Positions 12,943 through 60,300 of a stretch of DNA of 64,000 bases are shown piece by piece. The notes beneath the pieces are model-generated. The model was not told where the DNA came from. It saw nothing but the letters and a program-made list of their open reading frames with translations, and ran no database searches. A program made the position numbers and the translations under genes. Source of the DNA: Bactericera cockerelli. Taxonomy: Eukaryota; Arthropoda; Insecta; Hemiptera; Triozidae. Each line of letters opens with the position of its first letter. The stretch's first letter is position 1. The stretch lies in contig CM044955.1 of the NCBI GenBank assembly GCA_024516035.1, positions 13,864,079-13,928,078 of the forward strand. The letters run 5' to 3'.

Positions 12943-15900
12943 GTTCCAAGATCATCCTGCGAAGTGTGAGCGGTCTCTTCAAGTCGGGAGAGCTAACAGC
13001 CATCCTGGGTCCATCCGGGGCGGGCAAGAGCACCCTCCTCAATGTTCTCGCCGGGTACAAGTAAGTCACGGGGGGGGGTTCAAGTAAGTCGCGGGGCGGG
13101 GTTTGAATCCGTCGTGGTCAGAGTTTTTGTTATTTTATTTTTATTTATTGGAATTTTACTTTAATAAACAATTTACCAACGACAATGAGGATACTTTAAT
13201 AAACAATCTGTTTAAATGAGGATACTTGTATCTCGAAGTATTTATTTTACTAAGCGTGACCAATAAACGCTAGAGTCAAGTTTGATTCAATACATGGAAA
13301 AGGTCAACGAAATTATTCGATTGTTATTGTGCAATACAATATTTATCAATTATTCAAATCTCTTTGAACAATCGGCGAGCTACTCTGTATTATCGCATTT
13401 GAACGTGACCATTGGACCCTCGAACATTTCGTCAGTAACACTAATATCTCACAAGTCACTGTAATTGGTATTCGTCAGTAGTCAGTGAGTACCTCTAGTG
13501 TTCTCATCTCTATACATATGTATACAGGGTCCGCCAAAAAAAAGGAGCCACTCGAAATATCTAGAGAACGGATTATTATTATTTTATTTTTTTAATTTTT
13601 TACACGTGTATCATTATATCGAGGGGGGAACCTTTTTTGTAATTAAAAATTATTATTGATCTTTATTATTATTTTTTTGTACATACATACTTCTAAGTTT
13701 TTTTTTTAATTATTGTTATTAATTCTTTGTTGATGATTGTTTTGTAAAAAGAAATAAAGCGCAAATAAATAAATAAACCTTTTCTACTGGGGTTTGATTT
13801 TTTATCATTACCAAGGGGGGGTCAACTTTGGAATCTTAAATAGAACCACCCTATTTGTAATGTATTTCTGAAAAGTAGTTGATGACTTTTCTCAAACCTA
13901 AAAACTTGTCTTAAAATACTTTTAATGTCAACTACTTTTCAGGAATGTATTACAAATAGGGTGGTTCCATTTAAGATTCCAAAGTTGACCCCCCTGAGGC
14001 CGAACCTGGTAATGATAAAAAACCAAACCCAGTAGAAAAGGTTTACCCCTCGATATAATGGTGTTGTAGCATTTAAAAAAAGATAATCCGGTCTCTAGAT
14101 TTTTTGAGTGGCTCCTTTTTTTTGGCGGACCCTGTATATAAAACTCATAAGTGACTATAGGTAAGTGACTATTTTTTGATTATTATCTTTATTTACTTTG
14201 CGCGCCGATGACAAGATAACATAATATTATCTATCCAACACTAAGGTCGTCACGTCACAGTAGTAAATAAAAAAAATACTTATACAACTGATTTAATAAT
14301 AATTATTATGATAGTAGTATTAGCAATGGTAAATCATCGTTCTTCTGACAGAAGATTTGCATCTTTAACCCGCCTAAATATTTACTTTCCCAGTATGTAT
14401 GGATGGATGGTTTATTTGTGGGTAGTGCCGCATCACCAAGAGTCTCCTTCACTTTTCGAATTCCATTACATTAATTTCTTTACCCTCTGGTAATGTCGCC
14501 ACTAGTAGTTACTCATACAAGTAACTACTCATTTTTTTCTCACGAGGTATGGGTTTACCCCGGACATTCAAGTACAGAGCAGAAAATTTTGAACCCAGGC
14601 CACCGTTCGTGCAAGACTAGTGTTCTACCAACTTGGCCACGATGATTACTTCAGTATTTATTATTAATTTATTATTATTAGCTACAAACATTAACCTGAC
14701 CCAGCCTGTGTAGGGCCGAAAATGCCAGCCTCACGTGTTTGGAGGGAACATAATTTTCTTCAAGAAGTCCGCTCCAACCGAGGATCGAACTCGGGATCTG
14801 GACTACAGCCGTAGTCTCAACCGTCAACGCACGGTTTTATTATTTATTTTATTTGATTGTGTGACTACATAGTTATAGCAATAGCAATAATAAATCATTT
14901 GTTTTATTTATCTTTTCTTTTTTGTATACAGAGGACTCATCCTAAGCCATTTTTATTTGTCTGTCCCGGTAGCTCAGTGGTAAAGGCGGCACTCTGTGAA
15001 TCCAGAGATTCCAGTGGTCGCGGGTTCGAAACCCAACCGGGACATGATAAGTTATCCTACCATTTGGGATTTTTACCCCATCATAATACGTCTTGGGCTC
15101 ACTGCAGGAATAATGGGTCTTAAAAGTCCTCATCGGGCAGTATAAATAAGACGATATTATTATTATTATTTATTTTAATTGATTGTGTGACTACATAGTT
15201 ATAGCAATGATGGTCACCAGGCGTGGCCGGTGCTAAGGAGCTGCGGAACTGCAGCACCCCCAGACAAAAAAGAGAGGATTTTCTCAAGTCCTAACTCGTA
15301 CACAATGAAAATTATCACACCTTTCTAGAATATTCATACATAATTATTATGATTGGCATGGTAAACAAACTCGAAACATAGTTTCAGTTATCTATAGATA
15401 TTGAAAGAGCGACTCTATAAATCCTATTTTAGTCCGGTTTATGTGGCAGCACCCCCCAAAGCATTTTTCCAGCGGCCGCGCCTGATGGTCACTTATAATA
15501 ATAAATCATTCGTTTTATTTTTCATTTCTTTTCTTTTTTGTATACAGAGGACTCATCCTAAGCCATTTTTATTTGTCTGTCCGGTAGCTCAGTGGTAAAG
15601 GCGGCACTCTGTGAATCCAGATATTCCAGTGGTCGCGGGTTCGAAACCCAACCGGGACATGACGAGTTATCCTCCCATTTGGGATTTTTACCACATAATA
15701 ATACGTCTGAGCTTACTGCTGGAATAATGGGACTTTCATAGTCCTAATCGGGCAGTATAAATAAGGCGATATTATTATTATTATTACATAGTTATAGCAA
15801 TGATGGTCACTTATAATAATAATAAATCATTTGTCTTATTTTTCATTTCTTTTCTTTTTTGTATACGGAGGACTCATCCTAAGCCATTTGTATTTGGCTT

Positions 15901-16430
15901 CTATACTATTGTTGTATTTTATGTACCAATAATGTGAATAATATTGTTTATGTAATGTATCTGTAAAAACAAAATAAAACCCCAAAAAGGGAGGCCCGAG
16001 CTCTGTACAGAGTGTCAGAGGGCTTATTATTATTATATTATCATACCGACCTCAATAGCTTGGTCGATAAGGCGGCGGACTTGTAACCTGGAGGTCGGTG
16101 GTTCAAGTCCCGGATTCAGCGTAGATTTAGTAAAGCGAGTTTGAGTAGTTGTGATATCACGAAAGTGATTAACACAAATATGATAACTTTTTTTTATTAT
16201 ATTATCATTGTTGTTCCTTGTTCCAGGGTGGGCAACGCCTCGGGCCAGATCCTGATCAACAGTCAGCCCCAGGACATCAGGCAGTTCCGCAAGCTCTCCC
16301 GCTACATCATGCAGGAGGATCTGCTGCAGCCAGGGGTCACGGTGCTGGAGTCCATGATGATAGCTGCCCACCTCAAGCTGGGGAGCAGCCAGACCAAGGA
16401 GCAGAAACTGCAGACTGTGAGTATGAGAGA

Positions 16431-16467
<37 letters not shown>

Positions 16468-16537
16468 AGACCAAGGAGCAGAAACTGCAGACTGTGAGTA
16501 TGAGAGAGAGGGAGAGAGAGAGAGAAAGAGAGAGAGG

Positions 16538-16602
<65 letters not shown>

Positions 16603-16652
16603 CCAGACCAAGGAGCAGAAACTGCAGACTGTGAGTATGAGAGAGAGGGAAG

Positions 16653-16684
<32 letters not shown>

Positions 16685-16733
16685 AGAGAGCAGACCAAGG
16701 AGCAGAAACTGCAGACTGTGAGTATGAGAGAGG

Positions 16734-16772
<39 letters not shown>

Positions 16773-16815
16773 AGACCAAGGAGCAGAAACTGCAGACTGT
16801 GAGTATGAGAGAGAG

Positions 16816-16850
<35 letters not shown>

Positions 16851-17022
16851 TTGATTGATTGATAAATTTCATATATTTTTTACAATAAATTAATCTTATA
16901 CTACCACCTAAGCTAATAAAATAACTTCTGAGATGGTAAGCTCTCTTCTACTACTTACATAGATCTAAAGCTTAAAAAATGACATAATTATATAGATAGA
17001 AAATAAGGTATGTATGAATGTA

Positions 17023-17054
<32 letters not shown>

Positions 17055-20000
17055 AGAGAGCCAGTTCAAGGCCAAGAAACTGCAGACTGTGAGTATGAGA
17101 GAGAGAGAGAGAGAGGAGAGAGAAAAGCCCGGAAACTGTAGACTGTGAGAGAGACAGAGAGAGCCAGACTAAGGCCCGGAAACTGTATACTGTGAGCAAT
17201 GTGATCATGAGAGAGAGGGGAAGAGCCAGACTCTGCAGACTGTGAGTATGAGAGAATTGAGAGAGAGGGAGAGAGCCAGACTAAGGCCCAGAAACTGCAG
17301 ACTGTGAGTATGAGAGAGAGGGAGAGAGCCAGACTAAGGCCCAGAAACTGCAGACTGTGAGTATGAGAGAGAGGGAGAGAGCCAGACTAAGGCCCAGAAA
17401 CTGCAGACTGTGAGTATGAGAGAGAGGGAGAGAGCAAGGCCCAGAAATTGTAGACTGTGATTATGTGAGAGAGACAGAGAGAAAAGCCCAGAAACTGTAG
17501 ACTGTGATTATAAGAAGAACATTCTATATGGGCCGAGATCACCAAACTAGCGCCTTAATGGCTTGTAAAGGAAAAGTACAAGTCCTCATGATGGTTGATC
17601 GCACATAGAAAGATGTGGGTCAGGACGAGCCAATTTTGAAATAAAAATGGCTGGAGACCATCATTCCACCCCCACAAGCTGTAGCCAGCACTACAACAAC
17701 AACCAGCGCCTTAACCACTAATTGGTTTAATTCCCCATTTCTATTTCAGGTAAACGAAATCCTGGCCATGCTGCGACTTCAGAAGTGTAAGCGGACCCTA
17801 TCATCCCGCCTCTCAGGAGGAGAGAAGAAGCGACTGTCCATCGCTCTGGAACTAGTGGACAATCCCCCTGTCATCTTCCTCGACGAACCTACCACGTGAG
17901 TCTAGCTTAACACTTTCAGCGCCAGGTGATACATGAAAGTATCACCTGGCTCTGCGCTATTATGCGCTAGTATGAACATGGTTCTACTTCAAAGTATCAC
18001 CCACAGAGTCTTCTATAAGACGCTGGTGATACTTGTGAGTAACACTTTCTCTATGTTTAACATGAGAAATGTGTTGCTCTGGCCTAGCAGTATCCAAGAA
18101 CATTAAAAATTCCAAATTGAAGGTGATACTTAAAAGTATCACTTGGCGTAGACATGAAATCTCTTCCCCAGCCCAGTGATACTTTGAAGTATCACCACAT
18201 CAAAATCACGCCTGGCCTAAGAATGAAAATAGTCGAAAATACAGTTGGCGGTGAAAGTGTTAAGTTAAACTAAACCTGGCCATGCCTCGAGTTTAGAAGT
18301 CGGACCTTATCGTCCCGCCTCTCAGTACGAGTGAAGATCAGGAGTGACTGCCCGTGCCCATAGCTGTGGGACTGACTAAGAAGGCGGCCACAACGAGGAC
18401 TCTGGCCTATACCCTACAGTCCCTACACCCTAGACCAGGGGTCGGTAATTAAATCCTGTTAGGGTCCAGATTAAAATGAGAAAAATCTCCGCGGTCCGGA
18501 TTAATAAGAACCATCAGTCTTTTGGAACTTTCGCACACCAAAACTTTTCTGTCGATAAAATCTCTTTGCACATTTTTAGGACTACTTCTTCTTGCAAATC
18601 AATTTTTTTTTTTTTTTTAAGAAAGAGAAAAAAATATTATTTTTCGAACCTAAAATTTTGTTCGCGGGCCGGACAAATGAGCTTCGCGGTCCGCTAATTG
18701 CCGACCGAGGCCCTAGACCCTCGACCCCGACCCTGGTACCTACAGCTTGACTAAGGGTAAATGATCAATGGTCAATCACGTGAGTTTAGCCCTCGTTCCC
18801 AGTGGCGGTCTGTTATTGATCCAAACACTCCCTAAAACGTACAACAGTACTGACAATGGTGGAGAGTTTTTATAAATCGATCCGTTATATAGATGGAAAC
18901 GTTTCGAGATATGTAATAATAATAACATTCTTTAGTGGAAGGTAACCACCAGGCAAGGTTTATGCTTATAAAGCCTTTTCTTCACAAACTCAAATTAATG
19001 AGTGAAAATTCATGCACTGAATTACCAGACTAGTGTGTCAACCACTTGATTACCAGCTAAGTGCATGGTATATCAGTATCAGTATAAACAGAAAAGTGAC
19101 AAGTTGTATTAGATGTACATGAATATCAGAACATATGTACATATGTAATACATATAATTTTTTAAACAATACAAACTATTAACTCAAACCCATCTCCCCC
19201 CAGAGGCCTGGATGATCTGTCCAGCTCCCAGTGCGTGTCTCTCCTGGGCATGCTGGCCAGTGGTGGCCGCACCGTGATCTGCTCCATCCACACCCCTAGT
19301 GCCCGTCTGTTCGCACAGTTCTCCCACGTCTACCTAGTGGCGGAGGGTCAGTGCATGTTCGCGGGGGTGGGCCAGGACGTGGTCCCGTTCCTCGCCTCGC
19401 TCAACCTCCACTGCCCGCGCCACTACAACCCCGCCGATTTCAGTAAGTATATAATATAATAATAATATCGCCTTATTTATACTGCCCGATTAGGACTATT
19501 AAAGTCCCATTATTCCAGCAGTAAGCCCAAGACATATTACTATGTGGTAAAAATCCCAATTGGGAGGATAACATGTCATGTCCCGGCTGGGTTTCGAACC
19601 CACGACCTCTGGAGTCTTTGGATTCACAGAGTGCTGCCTTTACCACTGAGCTACCGGGACAGACCGGGACAGTATAGTATAGTATTGCTTTATTTAGACT
19701 GTCGGCTCGAGACAAGAAGTCCCATTACGCTAACAGTTTAATATAGCACCTCTTTATTTATTGTAAATTTTTACATGATTTACATGAAGTAATTGCACGC
19801 ATGGTTCGATCTCCAGCGGGGGAGGATTTTTTCCAGCTCTGCACTTGGATGTTCGCGGTCTCCGCTCATACCTCGTGAGGAAAAATGAGTGGTTGCTTTA
19901 ATATGGGCATCGACCAATGGCGGAATTATAGGCAAAAATAAGATCATAGGATATTAAGGAGCGTGATAGCGCTCTGACCCGCCAAGTCAAATAGTTCGCG

Positions 20001-23000
20001 CATTATTAAAGATACGTAAAGTCCTAATTTCTGTGATATTATAACACAAAGAAACACATTTGTTTTATTTAGTAAGTAATCTTTCCGCCCACAACCCAGG
20101 CTATGTTAGGTTATTGTGAGTAGCTGGTACGTTTCCCAGCTAATATACCAAATCAGGACGTTAAACCAAATAGAATCAACTGGTAACAATAGATCTCATT
20201 AAGTCGCAGTATTAATTGTAAGGAGTTTCCTCTGCAACACTATAACCAGGTCAGATAATATTTATTCAGATAATGCTGTTATTTGAATAAATAAAATTTA
20301 TAATATTAATATCGCCTTATTTATACTGCCCGATTAGGACTTTTAAGTACCATTATTGTACGAGTAAGCCCAATATGTATTATTATGTTGTAAAAATCCC
20401 TAATGAGAGGATAACTTGTCATGTCCCGGCCGGGTTTCGAACCCGCGACCTCTGGATTCACAGAGTGCCGCCTTTACCACTGAGCTACCGGGACAGACAA
20501 TTTAGTGTGTATTTCTTTTCTCTCTGCTTCCAGTGATAGAAGTCTCTAGCGGGGAGTACGGCAACTTCAACGAAAAGATGATGCTGAGCATCGACAACGG
20601 TAGAATATACAGGTGGAACAAACAGCTACCCCAGTCCCAGCAGAATTCAGGTCAGTACCTTTGACATCAGTCCCGGTCCAACCCAGGCTGGGTGAGGTGT
20701 GCGATTTCCAGCGAGTCAGCAAAACCCTGATAAATACTAGATATATATTTTTTTTTGCTTTCTATAAAGTGGCAATGGCTGAGTTCGATAGCCCCGGTTG
20801 GAGCAGATTTTTTACACAGAAAATTCTGTTCCCTCCGTACATGTGAGGCTTTCATTTCCAGCCCTACACAGGCTGGGTGAGGTTAATGTGGGTAGCTGGT
20901 ACGATTCCCAGCGTATGGAGGGTGATACCCCAGTCCCGATCCAGGACGTTAAATTAAATAGAATCGTTGGCGTTAGGAAGCGCATCCAAAACATGTGCCA
21001 AAACCAACCAGCCTCAACCATGAGGTTGAACATCGTCGACCCTTCTCAAGCGAGATAAGATAGAGTAAAAAGAAAAAGAAAGTAATAACTATACTTAAGT
21101 TCCAAAACAAAAGTAGGTATTTTCTTCTCAGCAGACTCAAAATATTTTTCGTAGTACCAATTTATCTTCTGTATCGCAATTCCAGACAAGGACCGCCTGA
21201 TCAAGAGACCCTCCCAGTACGCGGCGGTACACAAGACAGTATACGACTTCGATTCCTCCGCCTGGACACAGTTTAGTGTTCTCTTCTCCAGAATGATGCT
21301 CCAGCACTATAGAGATATCGTAAGTTCGAACAAAAGTTCTGCAAAAAATCGTAAATTAGAACAAAGGTTCTGTAAAAAATCGTTAGTTCGAACAAAAGTT
21401 CTGCAAAAAATCGTAAGTTCTGTAATTAAAAAGGAAAATCGAAATCTTCCCCAAAATGCCTGAGTTTATAGCCTGTTTTATTATCTGTATGATTTGTTTC
21501 CGAAAAGTACACTAGTACTTCATGGGAACATAAAAATGTATATGTAAAAGATAAAGAAATAAAGATCATTATTGTTTTTATTTTGTGTTATTTAATGGTA
21601 ATTTGTTTGTTCCTTGTAAATTGTTCATGTACCGTAAATATACAATACCTAACGGTGTTATTATTGTTATTATTTCAGAAAGTGATCCTGGTGAAGTGTC
21701 TCATCATTCTCTTCATGACGCTGGCATCTGCAGGGATGTTCCTCAATATGGGCCAGGACGGGTCCAAAACTCTCTTCATGTTCGGCTTCTGTTTCATCTG
21801 TGTCATCATATTCATGTACATCCCCATGTTGCCTGCTCTCCTCTATTGTAAGTACAACAACTAGGTAACAATGTTCTTAGCCCATACAACACATTTGCAC
21901 AAGAACTAGATATAGGGATAAATAGACTGACATATATTAATACTATACATACAATATACAAAGAGTAGCACCCCCAGCACGATTACTGATCATTAATATT
22001 ATTATTTTTTTATTATTTTTATATTATTTTTTAAACATAGATATATATTTATATTATTTTTCCCCTTAGTAAATTTTCATGTAATTGCATCATAAATGAT
22101 GCGTTTGAAAATAATAATAATAATAAAAAAAAATGTTCATGTACATCCCCATGTTGCCTGCTCTCCTCTATTGTAAGTACAACTTCTACAGAGAATTTAA
22201 CCTTTCGCACTCGAAAGCATGTGTAAAAGGACAAACAAGAAACCTCCTACAACTCGTCGCAAAAAAAAGTTCGACCTCAGATAAGGTTGATGTCATGTCT
22301 CACATGACAAGAGTACAACTGCACATAAGTTCGATGTCATGTCTGAGATCACACAACACTGCTTTTTGTGTTTAATGATTTCTTTAGATTAGTTGTGATA
22401 TCACGAAAGTGATTAACACTAATATGATAAACAATGTTTTTAAACTTTTTTATATCTGTTGATATCATTATTAGGTATGTATCTTCTTCTTCAAAAAATA
22501 AATAAAAAATACGTTTATATTTTTCAGTTCCCCAAGAAGTGAAGCTACTGAAAAGGGAGTACTTCAACCGCTGGTATGGCCTGCGCCCCTACTACATGGC
22601 TTTCACGCTATCCAGGTTCCCTCTTCTGGTGAGAAACTTACTAAAGTTTCCAACTTTTTTAATAATATTTCAATTTAGTGAAAAGTAATCAGGTCAAGTT
22701 AATGCTCAGAGCATTTTCTACCACCTAACACTCAGAGTCTTATCATTATGTGGTCACGTAATCAAATTAATGTGGAAAAATTTATGCAGTGGTTGGAATT
22801 CGAACCAACAGATCAATGCTCCACCTGTATTACCAGAATAGAGCGTTAACCACTTGAATACCAGTGCACATTAAATTTATACTCTGTACTTCATAAGAAA
22901 AATCTAGGGGGGATCTTTTTACAAAAGATGATCAGGAAGAAGGCAAATGTTGAAAATAAATCACAACAATAACAGCAAATCTCATTTTAGTAAAATGATC

Positions 23001-26000
23001 TTACAACAAAGATAAACGAAGATCCTTCACTTAGACTTTTAAATGAATAAATGTGTTCTTAGTGTTATTATATCACACTTATAGTGGGTAGCACAGAATT
23101 ATATAACATTTTTCTGTATCATATCTTTTTTCGCCAATAATTCCGTCACTGGTTTAACCATTAATCCAATGTTAAGATAAGCCAGACTCTCCTTCAACTC
23201 GGGCTATAGTGCGCTGTGATTGGTTGAAACTCCGACTTAAGGGGGTGTCTGGCTTAGCTTAACTTTAATCCTGTTTCATAATGTGGCCCTAAATAATAAT
23301 AATAAGATTCCTTATTTGACATTAAAGTAATAAATAACAATAAATGTAAAAAGGGCGTGATTATTGCCTATGGCAAACTTTACCATCTGTCTGTCCCGGT
23401 AGCTCAGTGGTTCGAAACCCGGCCGGGACATGACATTTTATCCTCCCGTTTGGGATTTTTACCACATAATAATATGTCTTGGGCTTACTGCTGGAATAAT
23501 GTGACTTTAATAGTCCCATTATTCCAGAAATAAGGCGATATTATTATTACCATCCAACCCATCTCCTCACAACCATATTTCTACTGATCCACTCAGTTCC
23601 TCCTGGGTTTGATCTACATCGGTGTGGCCTACACCCTGACTGGAATGCCCATGGAATGAATGACCCACGATCCTCAAGTTATCTTATACTGTATATTAAT
23701 ACTACTGTAATAATAATAATTCCGTGTCCGTGAGTTAGGTATTGATACCTAAATCACGGTGGTGAGAGAATTATATGGACGCCCGGATCCAATGTCTAGG
23801 CTCCTTTCATGTTCATTGATTCTGTTTGGTTTTAACGTCCTGACTTGAGGTAGACGGGACGGGGGTTTTTACTCTCCATTCGCTGGGAATCGTACCAGCT
23901 ACCCACATTAACCTCACCCAGCCTGGGTAGGGCCGGAAATGCCAGCCTCACATATACGGAGGGAACAGAATTTTCTGTGTGAAAAATCTGCTCCGACCGG
24001 GAATCGAACTCAGGATCTCTGGACTTCGGGCAGTAGTCACAACCGTTACGCCACGGAGGCTGGAATACTACTGTGGTACACACCTTCACTAAATCCCCTT
24101 ATAAACTTGTTTCTAGTTCCTCCTGGGTTTGATCTACATCGTGGTGGCTTACACCCTGACTGGAAATCCTCAAGTTGTCTTATACTGTATATTAATACTA
24201 CTGTGGTACAGTGGTACACACCTTCACAATACTCCTCATAACCTTGTTTCCAGTTCCTCCTGGGTTTGATCTACATCGTGGTGGCCTACACCCTGACTGG
24301 AATGCCCATGGAATGGACCCGGATCCTCAAGTTCTCTGCCATCTGCTATCTGGTGGGCCTCACCTCGGAGAGCCTAGGCTTTGCCATCTCCTCTCAGCTG
24401 AATGTGGTGGTGAGTTGCAGCTTTCTATGAACTTTTAACGTAATGGGACTCCCTGTATATGTATATTATTTTTCTATATATTATTTTTACTTTTGTAAAT
24501 TTTCATGTAATTGCATCATAAATTTAAAAATAATAATTTAAAAAAAAAAAATTGTGAGCGTTAATTTTTTTTTTTTTAGAGAAGGGGAAAATTTGCATTA
24601 AACACCGACCGGCGGCGTAGGTAAGTTCCTGTGAGCCAGCAAGAAGGTTTTGTACCGTCTAAAAACCCCTTCATTTATCCGTTCTTTTTTCATTTATGCC
24701 CTGGAACCGCCGTGTGCTCCGTGTGGCATTACTTCAGGGGTATGTGAGCGTAATGGGACTCCCTTTCTTAAGCCGACAGTCTAAACAAAGTACTACTATT
24801 ATTAATGTAAAAAATATCATATTTGTGTTAATCACCACAATCGTGATATCACAGTTACTCAAACTAGCTTTACTAAATCTTTGCTAAACTCTGGACTCGA
24901 ACCACTGACCTCCATTTTACAAGTCCGCCGCCTAATCTATCGAGCTACTGAGGTCGGTTAGTCCCATTTACTCTGATTCATCTTAGAAATTCAAATGCAA
25001 GCAGAACTACCTCATTTCTAGTTGTAAATGTTTTTTTTTTTTTTTTTTTTTTCTACCACAAAATGTTGTTTTTTTTCTCAGAACTCTGTGTTCATGGGTC
25101 CGGCCTTGTCAGTCCCATTCATGCTGTTGGCTATCTACGGCCTAGGCACCGGGTCCAACCACATCCCGCCTCTCATACGGCTAGGCATGTATGGCTCTTA
25201 CCTGCGCTATGGACTAGAAGGTAAGTATTTGAAATTCGAACATTTTAAACTACTAATTTCAAATAAAATATTTCATTGAGATCTTCTGAGACTGGACATG
25301 CGCCCACAGTGCTTGCGGCGTTTTCCTTCTGTATCTCAATGCTGATTCTCTGATATAAGTACCGTCCAGACATCTTCAGTATACCTTGTAACGCAAATTC
25401 TTCGTAGAAAATTATCAATTGCACGCATAAAAAAAAAAAAAAAAAAAAATATGAGTGATTCATAGTTGAAATTTTATGAGCGGTTTTTTATATTAGAAAA
25501 AGAGAGAAAAAAAGACGAAGATAAACCAGCTTGGTCATAAAAATAATGAAACTCAACTGACGGTGGTGCAGTGGTGTTACACCACTGGTGCACTAATGGC
25601 AAGGAGCAATGCGCAGGTTCAAAACCTACTGGATCCATGGAATGTAAACTCTTGGATTTAAGATGTGTTTGTTCACTTCTACACATTGTACCACACACTT
25701 GTATTTAAAATAACCACGACGTAGGCAAGTTATTATTTTCAAGAACAAAAGTAAAAATCACACCTCTTTATTTTGTACTCTGTGACCTGGGCCATCTAGT
25801 AACAATGTTCATGTACATCCCCATGTTGCCAGCTCTCCTCTATTGTAAGTATGTACAACGTCCACAGGGAAATAATTTAACCTTTTGCACTCGAAAGCAT
25901 GTGTGAGATGACAAGTGCTGAAGCGTGAGGCCATGGCGGCTCTACCAAGAGTTTTACTATTCCTTGTCTCTATCACAGGTATTGTCCTGGCGCTCTACGA

Positions 26001-26725: not shown

Positions 26726-26825
26726 CGATGTGACTCTGTAATAAAAACAATCCATCTCATGGATCCGTGGATCGGATCACATCCAATGCTTGGATTTTTG
26801 CTTCTTTATTTTAGTATGTGACCAT

Positions 26826-36416: not shown

Positions 36417-36424
36417 TAGAGTAG

Positions 36425-39823: not shown

Positions 39824-39828
39824 ACCTA

Positions 39829-39985: not shown

Positions 39986-39989
39986 ATTT

Positions 39990-41200: not shown

Positions 41201-41211
41201 TTCAGTTTTTC

Positions 41212-45300: not shown

Positions 45301-48300
45301 AAGTGGGGTTTGACTGCCGGGCCGGTTGGTGGTGTTGGTGTTGTTTCGCCGCAACGGGTTGTTATTGTCGTTGTTGCTTGTGCTGTATGGTGCCAGATGG
45401 GAGTTGGTCTTCTCGTTCCTTCACTAGTGTTTTTCGTGAGTAGGGTGACCATCTTACACACTACCTCCATCCGTTCATGTGCTCTGCTGTCCTTCTTGTT
45501 CTTACTGTATGAGTTGTAATTGCTTTTCCGTGACTCGTACAGGCGGTGGTGGGGCTGGGGATTGTTGTTGCTTTGTAGTATTTGGACTAGGGCTTCCATT
45601 TTCTGTATAATCAACAATTATAAAGATAACATGAGAACAAAAATTATATTGTTTTGTCCAACTAAATATAAGCAGTATAGGCATATTATAAATTGTGAAC
45701 AATGTATTATTTTATAGGTATCTTTTGTGGTGCATAATATTTTGTAAATCTTAGGTATTATACATCTTAAATAATATAAATCTTAACTGTGGTGCATAAT
45801 ATATTGTAAATCTTAGATATTATAAATCTTAATTATTATAAATATTATAAATCTTAACTGTGGTGCATAATATTATAAATCTTAATTAGTGTTTACCTGG
45901 TATATATATATCCATAATTTTTATAAATAAGGTATTGAAAAACATTATTAGCTATACGGTATTTTAAAAATTGTATCAATTACGTACTATGTACTGCAAA
46001 CTCTACCTATAATATAACATTCGGGTTTAGATAACATATAACATAAGATTCAAGTATAATATTCAAGTTTACATAAATATATTTTTTCTATCTCACTGTA
46101 CCTGATTTAAATTAGATACTTCTTAATACGTTTTTTTTTTCTTAGGGATTGTCTGACAATTATCTTTTTTGTAAAAGCTCTTCTTGTCTCGCGAAATACT
46201 TTATTCGCTGGTCCATGCATTCGATCCTTTCGTTAATTCGTATTCACACATTCGTTCTGTCACATGCATACTTTGTGTTCCCGGGCCCTGGGAAGCACTG
46301 GAGAATTTACTGAAACCATTCATTCTAGTTAATAAGGATACATTCATACTTTAGGAAGTGTGTCTGAAGGAAGGTTTAAAATGGGGGAAGTCGTTACTGC
46401 GTTCAAACGTTGACCAGTTTTAGAGTTTCTTTCGGACAAGAAAAGTTCAGATTTATATTCCATGAGCCTAAGGTATGGGTTAGGGTTCCCAGTGTTTGTT
46501 TGTTGTTTCGGGCGCCAGGGCTGTTAGCCCGGTATCGGGGGCCAACCCCGATTATGAACCTGTATATATACTTACCGTTATTCTCTAGAGTTGTCTTCGT
46601 AGAATGGCTTTAATCTTTCTATGTGAACTACATCTTTAAAGTTTTTCTTACTACTAAGTTTGCCTTCAACTTCGTAGTTCACATCTGATACCACTCTTGT
46701 GATTGTCAGTGGCCCGTAGTATTTCGGGTCTAACTTGTCCGTTCGGCCTACTTTTCTTGCCGGGTTGTACAACATAACCTTGTCTTGTACTTTGAACTTG
46801 GTGTCGGATCTTTTCTTGTCGAAATATTGTTTAATCGTTTTTTGTGCTGATTCTAGATTACTCGCGGCTTTTTCTCGCCATTCTTTTATCTTAGTGATTC
46901 TTTTATCTTGTGTTTCTGGGTCAGTGTTGGACAGTGCTACGTCTAAGGGAAGTGTGCCTTGTCGTTGGGGCCTCTTTGTTGAATAATAGCTCCAATTCCA
47001 TAGTCTGATGCGTCGATGACCAATTCTCTTTTCCGGGCAGGATTGAAGTGGCGTAGAACTGGTGCTGTAAGGAGCTTTTCCTTTATGAGTTGGAATTCTT
47101 TTTCGTGCTCCGTTTTCCACTGGAACTTGGCATTCTTCTTCGTGAGTTCCTGTAGGTTTTTGGTTAGTTGTGCGTACTGTGGAATAAACATTCGGTAATA
47201 ATTAGATAGTCCTAACCAACTTCGAACTTGTTTGACTGTTTTTGGTCTGTGGAAGAGCTTAACGCTTCTTAGCTTTTCTTCGTCGGGAGCTATGCCTTCT
47301 GCTGAGACCATATGTCCCAATACTTTGATTAAGTTCTTTCCGAACATACATTTTTCTGGTTTAACTTTTAGATTTACCTCTCTTAATCTCTGAAACACTT
47401 TTCTTAGGCTAATTAGGTGAGATTCAAAATCTGAATCTGCCACTAGCCAGTCGTCTACGTACACTAACACGGTGTTCCATAAGAGTCCTTTGACTGCGTC
47501 GTACATCGCCTTTTGACATATACTAGGGCTAGATTTCAGGCCGAAAGGGAGTACGTTATATTCGTGCAGCGCGTTACTGGTGGCAAAAGCTGTCTTATGT
47601 TTGTCTTCCTCTGCTAATGGAATTTGCCAGAAACAATTTTTCAAATCTAAACACGTGAAAAATTTAGCTCCATTCAGGTGGTTTAAGAAGTCGTCTGTTC
47701 TCGGCATCGGAAATTTGTAGTCGGTTACCTTTTTGTTCAGCAATCTGTAATCAACGCAAAATCTGGGATCCTTGTTAGACTTTTTAACCAATACTACGGG
47801 TGCTGAATATGGGGATTGAGATTCTCTTATGACTCCAGCTGTTAACATTTTGTTGACATGGCTCTCGATTAATTCCCTTTCTTTATGTGCTGTTCTATAT
47901 GGAGGACGCGCCACTGGTATGTCGTCCTCGAGTAAAATTCTGGCCGGGGGTACTCTGGCGTTCCCCGCTGGAATTTCATGTTCTGCGGAAAAAATATCTA
48001 CATACTCGGTTAATAATTTCTTAAGTTGTAATCTTTGTGTCTTATTAAGGTTATCTGCTATGTTGAACTTGATTGTGCTATTCACCTTATTGTTTACACT
48101 TGTATTATGGTCTAGTTCAGATGATACTAACAAAGTATTACTGTATATCCTATTGTTCTGAGTATAGATATCGGCGGTAACCTTGCGATAATCCTGAGTG
48201 TATACTATTTTATTGTTATGATAAATAATGCTGACTTTGTATTTTACTAGAAAGTCTGTGCCAAGGACAATGCAAGGTGTGAAATTTCTGATTACGTAGA

Positions 48301-51300
48301 AATCTTGAATAAGATAGTCTGAATTTTTATCAATGAAAAACTTTAATCTCGCGATACCTGACACGGTCATTTTTTCGTTGTTTGCTGCAATGACTTTCCT
48401 TATATTACAGTTTCGAACATTTTTGGGGTTAACCAAACTTTGATCGATGATTGAAATTGTACTCCCAGAGTCTAGAATAGCCCTGTGAGTGTTGTCGCCT
48501 TCGAATATTTTAATGGTAGTTAGGCCTGTTGGTTTTGGTCCGACCAGGCTGTAGCTGGGGGATTTAAGGTACTTCGTGGCTCGTTTACCCCTCCTTGATG
48601 AGCCACGACCCCGTTTCCCGAACGTTTTGTTGTTTGACCAAAGTTTTTTCTAGTTCTACAAAATCTTGCTAAGTGTCCTATTTTATGACAGTTAAAACAT
48701 GTAGGTCGACCGTCTCCAGTTCGACCATTATCCCTGTACCTGGGTTGAAATGGGCGTTTCTGTGAATAATTCGATTCTAAATTTTTAAGTCTCTCTAGGA
48801 TTTCGTCCTGTCGGTTTTTGTCATAGTTATTTTGTTTATTATGATTTATGAAGTTACATTGATTAAGTTCTACCTCTGTATTTCGAATGTCGACCATTCG
48901 GTTTACCCCGTTTATTTTCTTGATATTGTCTATCACTTGAACTAAAGTGTCGTCACCTCTTAACATGACTGTTTTCAGCATATCTAGGGGTAAGCCATCC
49001 AGTAGAAATTCTTTAATTCTATCGGACGGCATAAGCGGATCTATTTTTGAACATAAGGTTAAAATGTCCTGGATATATGCCATTGTTGGTTCATCGTCTG
49101 TTTTGAATTTCCTACTTTTAAGTTTTATTAATAAAATCCGTTTTTCTATATCTTCTTCGAAAGCTGTTTTGATCAATGTTACTACGTCTTCCCAAGTATG
49201 GTGTTCTTTAATGTTATAATTGTACCAGTCCGACGCAGGTCCCTCGAGGTAACATGGAAGAACTGTTTTTCTAATGTTTCCAACCCACCCGTTTACTTGA
49301 CACGCTAACCTGTATTTTTCAAGAAAATCGCTAATATTTTCACCGAATTTAGCTGAAAATGTAATTGGTTTTAACGTGGGAGTTTTCGGTTTTAAAATTG
49401 GGTCTTGGTGTACTATGTTTTGTGTTACTGGGCATGTTATACTTGCTGGACCTGAACATGACGTACTCTGTTCTGTTAGGTGGCGAGTGTTATCCAGGCT
49501 CACTAGTGGTGCTGTGTTTGATGACTGTGCAGTGGTGGTCGTTGATGTGGGAGTAGTTGTTATGTTTAAAAAAACTTTTTGTATTTAGGGTTTCTCGGTA
49601 GCTTATGTATTTTTGTAAAAGTTCTTTGAATCTGTCTGAAAGTGATTTAAGCAATATCTTCTGTTCTTGCGAACATTCCGGAAATTTACTTATTCGAGAT
49701 TTGTAATGTAAGTATCTCGTCTCGATTTGTCTGTAATTTGTTGATCCGTCAGCGAGTCCTTCAAAGAGTGTATTCAAATTATCTAGTCCCCTTTCTATTC
49801 TTTCTAACTCCGCCTCCAAATTTGGTAGTTGTTCTGGGGCCAACTGGGCGACCTCTTTGTTTTTATTTTTACTGAGCATTCGACGAAGGTCGTCGAGTTT
49901 TTCTGTGCCTTTTAGGGTTTCCCCTCTTAAAGCTAGCTCGTATTGTACCTCTTCCATGGTTAGTGTATAAATATCGAAAATTAGTTTAGCCATTTTAAAT
50001 TATTGTTAATAAAACGAAAAGTCAACAAATTCAGTCTTCTAGTCTATAGGCAGGGGTCACAACGTTATGTCAACAAAAATCTAGTTTGTCTATAAAATCA
50101 CTATGAAAACTAACGTGTACTTACCTAATAGATGAAGGATTCTGGGTTCTGTAATCGGAATAAGGGATAGACGCAATAGGCTTTGTTTCGACTGAACTTG
50201 TGAGGGAGGGCGACCAGGGGCGGGCTGACGTCAAGAGGTGTTCACTAGAGATCGGTGAGCGAGACTCCTCAGAGCGATGGTGTGACTCGGGAGTACTAAC
50301 TGACTTGTCCCTCTTTTCTTAGGTTTATATACGAGTGTTTATCGATGGTACATTCCACATTCCTTGATAGACTTGCTCCTATGATCTGATTATTGTATTA
50401 TCAGATCATATGAGTTATCTTCAGATTAAGTGGTTCATGTGTCATGTTTTGGCAAGGTGTCACTGTTATCTTCCATAGTCTTTATCTGAAGCCTATGGAA
50501 TTTCTTACACTGATGTTATTCGCGGATGGCAGTGTTACTGTCCCTATGACAGTATCTAAAAAATTATGGGAAATAAATACCTACTTTCTTTATTTATTAA
50601 GATGTTTGAATTGCTCATTTGTGTCCTGAAATGACTTTATTTAAAGAACTATGGCTCTTTGCATAGTTGAAATGGAGCTAAAAACTATGTCTATTAAGGC
50701 TGCTTGGTGTTATTTTACTGGGTTTTCCACTAAAACCTGTGGGAGTGTGGGTTGTAGAACCAGGATGGGAAATAATGGTTTAAAGAGCTTGAGGATACTC
50801 TAATAGAACAAACAACTGAGAAAAGAGTTGCATAAGATTTATTTCACTTAAAATTAATATAAAAAAATACTTTCTTTAATTGTACATGTAACTATTTATT
50901 TTTTCTCATGAGGTATTGTGGACCCCTCCAGATATAGGGCAGAAAAAATCCTACACTGCTGGCGATCGAACCCAGGTCACAGTGTGTGCAGGCCTTGTAC
51001 AATGCACTACTCTGTCACAGTTACTACTTATTTCAAACTAAGTCAAATCGAATTAGGTGCTTTAATGGGAGCAGCGACCAGTGATAGAATTATGGGCAAA
51101 ATCAAGGAAAAGAATATTCAAGGAAAAGAAAAAGTCCTATTATTCTGCGCTACCCACTAAAATGTTTCTATAATAACACAAAGAAACACATTTATTTATT
51201 TATTAATAATAAATTAATATTAAAAACATAAAAAATTAAAAAATAAATTAAAACCTTTCCAATGTGGGATTTGAACCCATTAGTAATAGATTAACCATTC

Positions 51301-54300
51301 TTAAATATCAATTTAATTAAAATCGCGCTCTCTAATATTCACTCTAGTAAAAAAGACAAAAGATGCATACATGAACTATCAAATAATAATTCCGTGTCCG
51401 TGGGATAGGTGTTGATACCTAAAATTTAGGTATCATTGATTTAATTGATTTAATAAAAAAGAAAAATTGATTTAATCACAGTGGTGAGAGTATTATATGG
51501 ACGCCCAAATCTAATGTCTAGGCTCCTTTCATGTCCATTGATTCTATTTGGTTTTGACGTCCTGACTTGAGGTAGACAGGACGGTGGTTTTACCCTCCAT
51601 TCGCTGGGAATCATACCAGCTACCCACATTAACCTCACCCAGCCTGGGTAGGGCCGGAATTGCCAGCCTCCCATGTTCGGAGGGAACAGAATTTTCTGTG
51701 CAAAAAGTCTGCTCCTACCGGGAATCGAACTCAGGACTACGGGCAGTAGTCACAACCGTTACGCCATGGAGGCTGGCAAATATCAAATAAAATTAATATA
51801 CATATTTATGGTTTAAAAAAATAGAAGCTCTATCCTCTTTCCTAAATAGATTGACCCTGAACTCTCTCAAGGTTTATATTGTAGAAAAAAGTAAGCATCT
51901 GTTAGTGCAAGACCTAAATTATAATTAGTCATACCAATGTGCATTTTGTGCGTTGATAACAGGCCAAACAAACATTCTGCTTGAATTTCAACCTGGGAGG
52001 ATCACTGTGGGGATTTTCAGTGTGTCATGACTCATTTGTTCTGTTTGTATGAGTAGATATGTAGCTATTGTAAGTACAGGCACTAATCTATTCATTTTGT
52101 ATTAATAATTATTGGGATATGTTTGTTAAAAAAAAAATCAATGTAGGTTAAACATGTGGGTGTTATAACAAACTGTCAATCAGAAATATACGCCCACTTT
52201 ATATTTGATTGTAATTTTTTTAGAATGTTCTCCCACATGTTTGAACTTATTTTACACACAAAATGAGGATCTTATCTTTTCTAAATAGATAAAATCCATT
52301 TACATTAATACATTCACAATCAACAGAACTCCGAAAAGGCTAGACCACATGACTCCCAATTTGGCACAGTGTGTCCTTTTGGTATTTAGGTGGTTTTTTT
52401 AAACTTTTTTAAAAAAATTCCAAATAGCATGCAAGACACGGCGAAAAAAAACGCGCGTCGACAAAGTGCCGGGTTTTATCTAGTTATATGTATAAAATTC
52501 GGAACTAAGAAATAAAAAAATCCTTGTCCACGCCAAGTGATTTTAACCAGAATTTTCCGATCTTGTTAGATCACTTATTAAATCGGCCATTTGAAACCAA
52601 GTCATCAAGACACAAACTAGGGTTCCTGGTTTTAGTAATTGGACATTTTAGGACAAACTGTAAAAAAAAAATCATATCATTCAAATTAAAAAAGTATTTT
52701 GGTACCTACCAAAACTTCTTTTCTGATTTAAACGTCAAATGAAATGTGATAATACATATTTTTTTTGTTTTTTGTTTAACCATTTGCAGTCGAGGAAAAA
52801 AAGAAAAAAAACAAACACCAACCCCAATAGGCATGAATTTTTTCCCCTACTAAAAAATGACTTATTTGTTTGTCTACCTCATTGTATGTAGACTTTGAAA
52901 GAAAAGTTACACTTTAGAGTATGCACTGGTAGTCAAGTGGTTAACGCGCTAGTCTGGTAATCCAGGTAGCATTGGGATCCGTTGGTTTGAATCCCACCCA
53001 GTGCACGAATTTTTCCTCATAAATTTGAGTTTGTGACCACATAACAATAAGACTCTGAGTGTTAGGTGGTAGAAAATGCTTTGAGCATTAACCTCGCCTG
53101 GTGGTTAATGCTCACCTTCCACTAAAGAGTATTATTATTATTGAGCTCTTGAGTATCTTTTTTGTAGGATAAACAGAGTGTTGTATTGTATTCTTGTATT
53201 GTACCTTCTTTCACAGACCTTCCCGACCTCTCTCCCCCATTCCCAACTACGCGGACAGCCCTGATGAGGACGCCAATGATCATTCTCTAGACTCCGGCGA
53301 CTCTAAGGATGGTGCGGCGAACACCAAGTACTCTAATGTAGATCTGGCTGAGGAGTCTACTCTCGCACAACATGGAACTGCAGGTAAACCTTACAAAAAA
53401 TAAGAATATAACTATTTTTTTTTACTTTCGTTATCCTATAGAAAGGAAAGTAATGGAATCACCCCAATTTTTCGATAGTCAGTTTTTCACATTTTTATTT
53501 TATTTTTTATTACGATTACGATGCAAAATTGTGTACTGTATAAAATTTGTTCACAAAAATACTAGCATCAGATTACATGCATAATTAAATAAAACAAAAT
53601 ACAGGGTAGTCAAGTGGTTTACGCACTAGTCTGGTAATCCAGGTAGCGTAGGGATCCGTTGGTTCGAATCCCACCCAGTGCATGAATTTTTCCTCATTAA
53701 TTTGAGTTTATGGCCACATAATAATAAGACTCTGAGGGTTAGGTGGTAGAAAATGCTTTGAGCATTAACCTCGCCTGGTGGTTATATTCTACTAAAGAGG
53801 GTTTTTATTATTATAGGGCAAAATACATAATAGAGAAGATTATACACAGATAATAAAACACAGTTAATAGGTATTTGGTGTTTCCAATCATGTCCCTCTA
53901 TTTTGTGAACTCGGAGTTTAGTATTGAGAGAGAAAAAGAATATTTGGAATGTAATATCAACTTACTAAAACTTTGAACTAAAAAAAAAACCAAATCGTTT
54001 GCAGAAATAATACATCATTTAGCCAGCCTTAATGGCCCGTTGAATACAACGAAAGTTCTGTTACTGTAGTGTCTGTAGTTAAGCAACATCCAGGTTAGGC
54101 CTTGGATGGGTCACCATTCCAAATCTATGCGAGGCTCCAATCAAGCTGTGTGAGGTTAATTTGAGAAGCTGGTTTTGTGAGTTTCCAGGAAATGGAGGGT
54201 ATAACGTATAACCCCTGTTGTGATATGACCGAATGCAGTTAAAAGCGACGATAAACGATAACTTTTAAAGAATAATGCTTTCTTTTTCATTTTAATTCTG

Positions 54301-57300
54301 ATCTAGTAAAGAGCACTTGATACAAAACTTTCTGAAACTAAAACTAGGCTTTGTTGATCAGGAGAAGTAACCTGACGGGGGAACTTGGTGTGTAGACATG
54401 GATTATTGTAGTACATGGTGCTCTGTGGTTGGCTATAAAATATTTTAAGCATTAAAACTATAAAAAGTTTTGACCTGTGAACCAGATGAAGCTTTTGTAC
54501 TATGATTATACCAAATAAAACCTTCAACTGAAGGTATTCTATAATATTTTTTCAAACATTAATCTCGCCTATTAGTTCTTTTCTACCAAAGTGAAGAAAG
54601 AAGAAAGTTATCATATTTGTGTTAATCACTTTTGTGATATCACAACTACTCAAACTCGCTTTACTATATCTACGCTGAAACTGGGACTTGAACCACCGAC
54701 CTCCGACCAGGTTACAAGTATGCCGCCTTATCGATCAAGCCACTGAGGTATAAAAAATATATATAAAAAATTCCCCCCCTTTCTACCCCTCCAGACGCCA
54801 CTGCCCTACCGTCTCTTCCCAGTGGTGGATTGGAACTGGACCAAGCGGACAGTGGTTCGGATCGGTTCACAGTCAAGGAGACGCCCACGGAAGACTTGGC
54901 GCCGAGTTTGGCCGATGATGCACGAAGCACGAGCTCGGGATCGGCTCTGTCACGTGACGTGAGCATGGACACGCTGGCGCACGCAGTGTGCAACCTGGAG
55001 TCGAACCTCAGTACTGTGGCAGCCATGGAGCCCGCCTGGTGTGGACTGCCGCTCAACATATTCGATAGCGTGAGTGCTCCTATCTAAAAAGTTAAAAAAA
55101 GTTATCATATTTGTGTTAATCACTTTCGTGATGTCACAACTACTCTAACTCGCTGTACTAAATCTACGCTGAAACCGGGACTTGAACCACCGACCTCCAG
55201 GTTACAAGTCCGCCGCCTTATCGATCAAGCTACTGAGGTCGGTTGAGTGCTCCTATCTATTACTGTATAAGCTAATCCTCTCACTGATTTTTTTAAGGGG
55301 TAATAATCAGTGGCGTAGCCAGGGGGGAGGTTCCCCCCCTGGCTACGCCCCCCCCCTACGCCACTGGTAATAATAATAATAATAATAATAGGTAATCTAA
55401 CAAGGGCAAAGCATAAATTAGTAAATAATAATAACCTTTAGTGGAAAGTAACCTACCACCTAACTTTCTAAATTGAACCACCGACCTCCGTTACAAGTAA
55501 TAATAATAAATCATTTGTTTTATTTTTCTTTCTTTTTTTGTGTTCAGAGGACCCATCCCATCCCAAGCCATTCTTATTTGGCTTTTAAGATGAGTATTGG
55601 GTGGAAGAGATTGCCACAGGCAATAACCCCGCCCTTTAGGTAGGACATTAACTTCATTCTCTTTTTTTTTCGTTCTTGTATCTTTGCTTAATCTTATTGT
55701 TTCTCTTTATAATTTCATTCTATTTTACTATATGTATATAGTTTTGTTCTACCTAATATAGCTTACTATAATATTAAAAGTGTTAGTGTTCTAAGAATCT
55801 GAAGGAAGATAAGTCCGCTGCCTTATCGATCAAGCTACTGAGGTCGGTTGTTGTTGTTGTTGTTGTTATTATTATTAGTTATTCATTAAACTATTATGTA
55901 TGTTCCAGGGCTACCTGTGTCTGCCCTACGTATCTCTGCCCTACATGGAATTGTTGACGGATCCCAACGTGAGAGGATATGTTGTGGGCGCCACCAATGT
56001 GCTGTTCAAGCAGAAGAAGAACATCGCTGAAGTCTTGGTCGAGGTTTGTTTGTGTTCATGTTAAGAAGAAGAAAAAAATGTAGCTACTGTCTACAAAAGA
56101 ATAGATGTACGTCACTTCTAGCCTAAAAAATTCCTTTAGTAGTGACTGTAGTGAGAAATAGAGCCGGAGTGTCTTACCATGAATTTTAAAACTATATACT
56201 CGTATGTTATTTTTAATAATAATAATAATTTCGCTTTATTTATACTGGCCGATTTGGACTATTAAGTCCCATTATTCCAGCAGTAAGCCCAAGACGTATT
56301 ATTATGTGGTAAAAATCCAAAATGGAAGGATAACTTGTCATATCTCAGCTGGGATTCGAACCCACGACGTATGGAATCTCTGGATTCACAGAGTGACGCC
56401 TATACTACTGAGCTACCGGAACAGACTGATCTGATCTATAAATCCATCTTATATTACAAAATGATTCGTGTGACTGTGTGTGTGTATGTTTAAAACGCTA
56501 TAACTCGAGAACTACAAGTCGGATTGATCTGAAATTTTGCAAGGACATTTTTTATTCGACCCATAACTATTCTGTCCCGGTAGCTCAGTGGTAAAGGCCG
56601 CGCTCTGTGAATCCAAAGATTCCAGAGGTCGTGGGTTCGAAACCCAGCCGGGACAAGACAAGTTATCCTCCCACTTGGGATTTTTACCACATAATAATAC
56701 CACATAATTTTCACAGAAAATTCAACCATAAGGTTGAACAACGTCGAGCCTGCTTGAGCGGGATAAGACAGAGTAAAAGAAGAAGAAGAAGAAAAAGAAT
56801 ACGTCTTGGGCTTAGTGCTGGAATAATGGGACTTAATAGCCCTAATCGGGCAGTATAAATAAGGCAATATTATTATTATTATAAATCCATTTTTATATAA
56901 ATATTTTTGAACTCAATGTGGTCTGATTCGCTTCTCCCGCCAGGTGGACACAGGCAAGATTGAAACCAACAATCTGGAGCTGAAGAAATGCCTCTACCTC
57001 TCCACCGAGGACCTGCGGTTCGCTGATTACATCGTGTGTCATGTGGTGGACGAGAGACACGATGTGTTCCTGGACGATGTGGGCTGGGAGGGGGGGGACG
57101 AGTGGATAAGAACCCAGTTCAAGATCTATATCCTCTCCCTGCTGCGAACCTCTCTCTTACCAGGTACAACCTTTATATTTTTTTTTATTATTATTTATTA
57201 CAATCTAAAATATTAATATTATTATTGCATCAATACACTTATATTCTATTCGCATAAAGTCTACATTATATTGAATAAGACTTCTCACTCATTATTTATT

Positions 57301-60300
57301 TATTTTTTTTACAAGAACTGACGGAATGTATTCCCATTTATTACAATATTATTAAAATAAAGATAATAAGAAAACGAAACCAGCTCATAATACAAGAGAA
57401 TCAATATCTCTTAGTATGAGCTGTGAAGCAGTATTATAATTAAACAATCTATTCGACACAGATAGGTACCTCGAAACATAAGTAAGTACTAAGTATACAA
57501 GTAAACATTATTACATTATTAGGTTTACGCCAAGTTATGTATTTATTCTTTTTATGTACCTTCATCTTCTTAATATATTTATTTATTGTACCTATCATGT
57601 GTATCAATTGATGCAAATAAATTACAAATTACATTGCTACTCGAATGTTAATATCACTGAGGTCATATAACATAGAGGGGACCCGATGTATCAAGATTTG
57701 CGTCCAGTAGGGACCATCAGGCACCATTATGTGGTAATATAAGATTTGGTATCTGACGTGAAAATTAAGGATGTTTAGATATCCGCCACTGCATGACGTA
57801 AACAAAAAATTCAAATAAGTTGAACCAATCAGAGGCCGGGATTTGTTGAAAGAGGGACCATCAGCTGTTCAAAGTTGGACGCATAAATTTGTTCAATTCG
57901 AGATAGGTAAGGTTCCCCTATTTAATATGATCTCAGTGGTTAATATACAGGGAGGGTGTTCTTAAGAAACATAGCGAACCTTTTAACTTCGCATACTAGA
58001 GCTCAAACGACCTCAGTACCTTGATCGATACTTGTAACCTGGAGGTCGGTGGTTCAAGCCACGCATTCAACGTAGATTTAGTAAAGCAAGTTTGATTTGT
58101 TGTGATAACACGAAAGTGCTCAGCACAAATATGATAACTTTTTTTTTAATAGAGCTCAAATTATAGAGCAAAGTTACCTCTATTTTAGCTCTAGTGTACG
58201 TGGTTAAGGAGTTCCCTATGTTTTTAGGGATACCTTTTATACAATCCTTTTACATTCATTCATAATCAACGAAGCTCCGGAACGGCTGAGCTATATCTAT
58301 TTCCATGCATTGAATGAAGCCTGTTGATATCTACGGCTGTGTTTTTGTCTTGCGGGAGCCGGATCACTTCAACGCGTCATTCATGACCGCATGGAAAGAC
58401 ACCTACTTCTATTCTATTCCTTATTACAGAGGGCTCGCGGGAGCTGGATCACTTCAACGCGTCATTCATGACCGCATGGAAAGACACCTACTTCTATTCT
58501 ATTCCTTATTACAGAGGGCTCACGGGAGCTGGATCACTTCAACGCGTCATTCATGACCGCATGGAAAGACTTCTATTTTCTATTCTATTCTATTCTACTA
58601 TTACAGAGGGCTCGCGGGAGTTGGATCACTTCAACGCGTCATTCATGACCGCATGGAAAGACACCTACCTCTATTCTATTCCTTATTACAGAGGGCTCGC
58701 GGGAGTTGGATCACTTCAACGCGTCATTCATGACCGCATGGAAAGTCACCTACTTCTATTCTATTCCTTATTACAGAGGGCTCGCGGGAGCTGGATCACT
58801 TCAACGCGTCATTCATGACCGCATGGAAAGACACCTACTTCTATTCTATTCCTTATTACAGAAGGCTCGCGGGAGCTGGATCACTTCAACGCGTCATTCA
58901 TGACCGCATGGAAAGACACCTACAATTACAAGACCTACTTCTATTCTATTCCTTATTACAGAGGGCTCGCGGGAGCTGGATCACTTCAACGCGTCATTCA
59001 TGACCGCATGGAAAGACACGTACAACTACAAGACCTGGCGATGCAGCAGCCACGAGGAAATATTCAACCTGAGCCCCGGCCACGTCTTCTCAGGACAACT
59101 GAGTGTTACCGACATGAAGCTACGCCTTACGCAGTGAGATATATTTTTTTAATTTATGCACCGCACTTATTCTTTAATTGAATAGGTGAGTAGAAGAACA
59201 TGCTAAATCGAAAATCGATTTTTTTAGCAGAGTAACATGCAATGTACTCTTTCTTATCATCTCGTTGAATATGAAGTAAAGACACCCCCTACAACTATGG
59301 CAAAAATATGTTAGAGTTGAGGAAACCTATAGCATCTACACTGTATAGCATGTAGACCTATAGCATGTAGATTCTACAGCATAGTAACGTAGTATTATTG
59401 CACTCCTGAAAAGTCAATTTTTGTCATAGCATGTTCTTCTACACACCAATGCAATTATTTTTATCGTTTATTTGAAAAGTACCAGCATGATAACGATTTT
59501 TTTTTTCAAACAACCTTATTATATTTTCATTTAACATACATACACATCCTTCATTTAATATTTAATTAAGCGCGCGATTAGATCAGTGGTTAAGCACTCG
59601 CTTGCCATGCGAAAGGTCCCTGGTTCGATCCCCCGTGCCGACAAAAATTTGTATTCTTAATTTGGTTACAATTGTTAGTAAGGGATACCTTCTGGTGCGC
59701 TCGTGTTGACCCAGCACCTAATTGGGAAGTATTGTGTCACTTCTCGCCCATCGGAGGGGAAGCATACTACGGGATGGGTAGGCTACAACACAGACCACTA
59801 GCATCTACAGTAGCTCCTGTTTCATGGCTACGAAATAAAAACAACTGTGAAACACTCATCTTTAAAAAAATAATAATTAATAGTTCCTGCAGTCCAATGT
59901 ACTTTTTTTCAATCCAATATTATCTTCTTTTTTTACTGTCTTATTTTAATTATAGAAAAAATTGAGAACATGAGAAATTATGCTATTGGAATTAACAATA
60001 AACATTATTATTTATTTAACGAACTTGTTTTTATTTATTTTATTTTTAATTTCAGCACCATGCAGAACACTGAGGGAGGACGCAAGCTGAACCAGGCTAT
60101 GATGAACACTGGCAAGACCCTGGTCACTACTAGCAAGGCTGTCGGTGAGAATCTTGTCTCCATCAGTACAGACCAGGCGCGGCCGGTGCTAAGGAGCTGC
60201 GGAGCTCTGGCACCCCCAGACAAAAAATAAAAAAGAGAGGATTTTCTCAAGTCGTACACAATACACAATAAAAATTATCACGCATTTCTAGAATAATTAA

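Follow-up and report, generated by a model that had tools for sequence, protein, structure and literature searches.

In a 64,000-nucleotide stretch of the genome of the psyllid Bactericera cockerelli (assembly GCA_024516035.1, contig CM044955.1, positions 13,864,079 to 13,928,078; referred to here as the window, with positions counted from its first letter), eight exon edges in the genes for an ABCG transporter, CPPED1 and AVL9 have been locally copied. We think it probable that these arrays reflect ordinary tandem duplication across exon edges combined with a survivorship or selection filter. The arrays are minisatellites, or internal tandem repeats crossing an exon edge, with units of roughly 10-150 bp. 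Four multiply a donor splice site, two an acceptor and two the stop codon; all eight, first noticed in a first-pass annotation of the sequence, were recovered by Tandem Repeats Finder (TRF), self-comparison and alignment, and the alignments place an array's own exon edge within its unit in every case (Table 1). Consistent with the reading we favor, the extra copies lie on the noncoding side of the edge, and the units are unrelated, each with its own edge. The description of the copying as tandem or local stands for the head-to-tail units but only in part for ABCG exon 7, whose copies are now 325 and 3997 bp from their source.

Many copies of exon origin retain intact splice sites, which were scored with a weight matrix built from 24 donors and 25 acceptors of the window itself. 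At ABCG exon 2, where 13 of 14 array copies were found by pattern and the one at 17448 was placed by hand, nine decoy donors are identical to the functional 9-mer, ACTGTGAGT. The duplication at exon 1 supplies a second donor at 13083, and both donors there read CAAGTAAGT (score, 9.5); the exon 6 unit includes only 3 exonic bases. For AVL9 exon 9, an intact acceptor is present in six of the seven upstream copies, with scores of 9.9-11.0, the functional acceptor scoring 11.0; five of these decoys equal the functional site over 15 bases and the sixth scores 9.9. ABCG exon 2 and AVL9 exon 9 each have a single full-length reading. An early stop follows from every decoy tested (15 at ABCG exon 2 and 6 at AVL9 exon 9), and the conserved protein is obtained only from the copy joined to the exon.

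For AVL9, a protein sequence, P0241, bears on the choice of site. Of the 656 residues of the spliced AVL9 model, 654 agree with P0241; because the two differ at only 2 positions, it is the last of the seven near-equal acceptors that AVL9 splicing uses. The AVL9 gene spans 19.7 kb here and P0241 is encoded on a contig of only 2764 bp, so that this contig is most simply read as a spliced transcript of B. cockerelli or a very close species. Tandem duplication over splice sites had been put forward in the first-pass annotation as a route to new introns and alternative exons; none is found where this can be checked. A new intron in AVL9 is ruled out, since the model that matches P0241 has a single exon 8-9 joint and skips all six upstream acceptors that are intact; in ABCG, no insertion appears at the array-bearing joints when homologues are aligned. 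Exon definition is a known principle that fits the use of the exon-joined copy.

On the reading we favor, segments of 23 to about 140 bp straddling an exon edge would be duplicated in tandem, and the resulting arrays would grow or decay like any minisatellite. Only one copy would stay joined to the exon body, and this copy would be the one used, by the spliceosome through exon definition or by the ribosome at the first stop, while the extra copies would drop into the intron or past the stop at little cost. Selection would mostly remove duplications internal to exons, leaving survivors with exonic sequence at the edges, and some arrays would later be broken up. Slippage or repair, suggested in the first-pass annotation, is a likely cause; slippage or microhomology may have produced the duplications, with exon definition as the chooser and selection as the filter, and matches of 3-4 bp are seen at five junctions, as read by eye and with no null for comparison. 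That each array starts at the functional copy, as had been pointed out, holds throughout, but this is a matter of geometry and protein survival and implies no mechanism. The functional copy is always found at the exon because a duplication spanning a donor yields the order exon body, edge, edge, mirrored for acceptors and stops.

The arrays also appear to record a history. At one codon of the ABCG exon 2 array, all five proximal copies (functional included) have GAG, and all eight scored distal copies have GCC; 13 of the 14 copies were scored, the codon search having found no match in 17233, one of the nine distal copies. GCC encodes alanine, the residue found in Diaphorina at this codon; the functional exon encodes glutamate. 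The distal copies (within 16396-17500) seem to carry the exon in an earlier state, an apparent fossil. Because they keep a codon since lost from the exon, this edge was probably duplicated at least twice; the simplest history would be duplication at the GCC stage, then two substitutions in the exon, and then duplication again. Copies farther from the functional one are more divergent from it both here (rho = 0.63, p = 0.02, n = 13) and among the CPPED1 stop-codon copies (rho = 0.88, n = 14, the copy at 28135 placed by hand), with the caution that copies within an array are not independent, which makes the p values for polarity too small.

Not all families are still contiguous. The ABCG exon 9 acceptor family no longer is, and the two exon 7 copies, 98% (22133) and 96% (25805) identical to their source by self-BLAST, are dispersed, although the junctions of this family point to a tandem origin. 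Copies 2 and 3 of exon 7 have the left junction and about 110 bp in common and therefore probably derive from one earlier duplicate. An AT-rich stretch with an A-rich tail at its end immediately precedes copy 2, which suggests that this stretch is a later insertion. The first-pass count of edge copies was incomplete, overlooking both a decayed copy of the first part of ABCG exon 3 (78.6% identity over 84 columns, 515 bp downstream, in intron 3) and a short, weak copy from CPPED1 exon 4 (30619-30656, repeated at 30750-30786). Its view that the arrays are separate local duplications and not one mobile element is borne out, as the arrays have no common sequence at E <= 1e-3. A single mobile element or introner as the source is thereby ruled out, in a between-family self-comparison whose 102 lines of output all trace to the trivial match of 1-64000 with itself and which very short units could escape.

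How far edges are enriched was asked of 22 repeat families, listed with their unit lengths by hand from TRF and self-comparison; dispersed repeats resembling short interspersed nuclear elements (SINEs) were excluded, and founder placement was random in the null. One test set aside three of these, namely a repeat at 29467, the CPPED1 exon 4 copy and the exon 3 duplicate; of the 19 remaining families, 8 fall across an edge versus 0.81 expected, a count reached in 0 of 200,000 random draws. Among all 22 families, 10 are at edges versus 1.38 expected, the CPPED1 exon 4 copy owing its edge status to an inferred unit. Eight families touch an exon, versus 2.25 expected (p = 0.0008). The window was picked for its striking pattern, and the p values bear that selection. 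At 45726, one of the families away from edges is flanked by a 402-bp direct repeat whose two arms enclose a retroelement. Of 444 exon-interior positions not belonging to the listed families, 3, 3 and 0 qualify as local repeats at three thresholds, and such scarcity fits the removal of duplications inside exons.

Several of these results weigh against a filter acting on ordinary duplication. A filter only removes duplications; it cannot explain 8 of 19 families at edges, or the 8 that touch an exon, against the expected numbers. All six ABCG tandem families counted sit at edges. Furthermore, the polarity of divergence is not significant in three of the five arrays (AVL9, rho = 0.44, n = 7; ABCG stop, 0.00, n = 5; exon 6, 0.50, n = 3).

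One way to account for the excess is that exon borders are mutational hot spots in this lineage, where breaks, stalled replication or transcription-linked damage drive local copying. The edge excess itself, the probable repeated rounds at one donor and the presence of both stop-codon arrays where the convergent genes ABCG and CPPED1 face each other all speak for this, but we consider it unlikely. The excess depends on ABCG; elsewhere, 2 of 13 families are at edges versus 0.40 expected (p = 0.057), and AVL9, likewise with 22 edges, carries one array. When positions rather than families were scored, local repeats at threshold 34 were found at 7 of 57 edges, 209 of 1646 nonexonic positions and 30 of 476 exon-interior positions, giving no excess of edges over nonexonic sequence (edge 13060 scores under the threshold in this test). 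A position-wise excess appears only once the arrays derived from edges are removed, which leaves 92, 74 and 66 of 1518 nonexonic positions at thresholds 34, 42 and 50 (p = 0.085, 0.024 and 0.014). The choice of window and the hand-made list count against a hot spot as well. ABCG is unusual, and a general edge rule, such as the genome-wide bias suggested in the first-pass annotation, is unproven from this window. The broader proposal that minisatellite birth in psyllids is directed to exon borders, edges repeatedly shedding copies into introns and 3′ untranslated regions (UTRs), strikes us as doubtful.

Alternatively, the pattern may be a peculiarity of the ABCG locus, where duplication may be locally frequent or altered expression selected for, with no rule about edges; we find this rather improbable. 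The first-pass annotation spoke of three unrelated genes, and all three do carry arrays, but six of the eight, together with the exon 3 duplicate, are in ABCG. At a score of at least 40, however, TRF finds in 12943-26259 no further array whose unit reaches 20 bp, so that a plain high local rate leaves the edge position unexplained. It is very improbable that the arrays are functional, with decoy splice sites or repeated stop regions tuning splicing or 3′ UTR use: many perfect sites have been kept (nine donors at ABCG exon 2 and five acceptors at AVL9), but youth would also yield perfect sites, distal copies decay in two arrays, and the early stops described above await every decoy in the two arrays tested. 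That the extra copies are assembly errors is scarcely credible, for although the two to three frame breaks in CPPED1 make single-base errors possible there, the copies have diverged through substitutions and deletions, with one set distinguished at a codon; other sequence interrupts two families, and ABCG and AVL9 read without frame breaks over 22 exons.

The exon edges themselves rest on gene models supported by homologues, and the GT-AG sites at the array edges agree with the psyllid homologues. In ABCG, AG precedes every exon and GT follows the first ten. The protein is 85% identical to that of Diaphorina citri and 86% to that of Cacopsylla melanoneura, is related to human ABCG1 and ends in HFSLTKGY*, in agreement with Diaphorina and Cacopsylla; its N-terminal part was not found within the window. 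The word AATAAA or ATTAAA occurs at 26740, beyond the ABCG stop-codon array. The CPPED1 model is backed by homologues from Cyamophila, Cacopsylla and Diaphorina, and its C-terminal end equals that of Cyamophila and Diaphorina; the Cacopsylla record has a different end. Compared with the psyllid homologues, the CPPED1 frame has a break in exon 3 and one or two more in exon 4, the second exon 4 break being visible with one of the three homologues. Either CPPED1 is a decaying gene or the assembly contains base errors there.

Table 1. Genes and edge-derived repeats in the window
Feature	Coordinates	Strand	Details
ABCG transporter gene	12943..26259	+	11 exons in window; set by GT-AG and homologues
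ABCG exon 1 donor duplication	13053..13103	+	Edge 13060; 23 bp, 2.2 copies; TRF and alignment
ABCG exon 2 donor array	16387..17515	+	Edge 16416; GA-rich repeat; functional copy and 13 copies
Decayed duplicate, start of ABCG exon 3	17745..18337	+	17745-17828 copied at 18260-18337; self-BLAST
ABCG exon 6 donor array	21317..21420	+	Edge 21319; 31 bp, 3.4 copies
ABCG exon 7 end and donor	21808..21858	+	Edge 21847; source of copies 22133-22183 and 25805-25851
ABCG exon 7 donor copy 2	22129..22234	+	Behind AT-rich stretch
ABCG exon 7 donor copy 3	25801..25914	+	Within intron 10
ABCG exon 9 acceptor copies	23594..24340	+	Copies 23594 and 24115; functional 24254; tandem unit 138 bp
ABCG stop-codon array	26219..26720	+	Stop edge 26259; 41-bp unit with nested 22-bp unit; 3′ of coding end
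CPPED1 stop-codon array	27698..28498	-	Edge 28442; proximal 57-bp and distal 48-bp units; 14 extra copies
CPPED1 gene	28442..33964	-	Five exons found, first exon without fixed 5′ end; tblastn with psyllid homologues
AVL9 gene	42308..62025	+	Complete coding sequence, 11 exons
AVL9 exon 9 acceptor array	58349..59036	+	Functional 58962; seven upstream copies, spacing 85-100 bp

Some other features of the window were seen. A single open reading frame (ORF) at 35024-35376 on the minus strand is, we presume from its translation, RPA3 (replication protein A 14-kDa subunit). An array of 13 copies of a 27-bp unit at 38413-38766, away from any exon found here, forms an acidic repeat open on the minus strand. 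Within AVL9 intron 4 (region 44343-50551), retroelement-like ORFs at 46578-49999 on the minus strand, which we take to be of the Gypsy type, are flanked by the 402-bp direct repeat already mentioned; as its copies are 99.8% identical by self-comparison, the insertion is probably recent. Dispersed tRNA-like (SINE-like) repeats with a "GGTAGCTCAGTGG" box occur on either strand, for example, at 14980-15100, 20410-20500, 31300-31400 and 56570-56700. A piece of one dispersed repeat of the window gave 0 exact matches in collections of genome contigs and viral contigs.

The psyllid case belongs to an already described kind of border-crossing repeats. IFI6 is said to contain a minisatellite with several donor sites that are alternatively spliced, the likeness here being that each unit carries a splice site. 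Human introns have reportedly come from tandem arrays and are alternatively spliced, going by the title of Zhuo et al. 2007. De Grassi and Ciccarelli (2009; PMC2812944), who studied segmental duplications in humans, describe variable internal tandem repeats at exon-intron boundaries, with units averaging 30 bp, 27 intron modifications, some new introns and variation between recent paralogues. Minisatellite units cross exon-intron borders in both settings; unlike the cases in that account, six arrays are found here in one psyllid gene and no new intron is seen. In the potato RdRp gene, tandem duplication over an intron-exon border gave a new spliced intron (Ma et al. 2016; PMC4974935). As described there, the duplication spans an acceptor and the start of an exon and inherits the splicing signals of the parent border, much as in AVL9, but the AVL9 duplicates are passed over by splicing. 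Intron gain by tandem duplication has been argued for some Drosophila introns by Lehmann et al. (2010; PMC2891723), who also cite many partial-exon duplications in fly populations. Splice-site sequence is locally duplicated there as here; the gains treated in that paper are old and without a footprint in flanking DNA, whereas the psyllid footprints are fresh. A literature search for an edge bias of duplications matched 2 papers, the one listed being on pediatric brain tumors, and among 5 papers listed in another search none concerned repeats in psyllid genes by its title; we claim an absence no further than these searches. What is unusual here is the number of arrays in one gene, the two stop codons on facing convergent ends and the apparent fossil codon.

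These arrays provide natural tests of splice-site choice, in which identical donors or acceptors compete within one intron; in such competition, production of the protein requires that the exon-joined copy prevail. Were minisatellite birth in psyllids directed to exon borders, the arrays would amount to a dated fossil record of what the exons once read, and new introns and exons could draw on their ready-made splice sites at any time. If the edge excess proved to be genome-wide, it would become possible to measure directly, in a living lineage, how fast duplications give rise to candidate introns and alternative exons.

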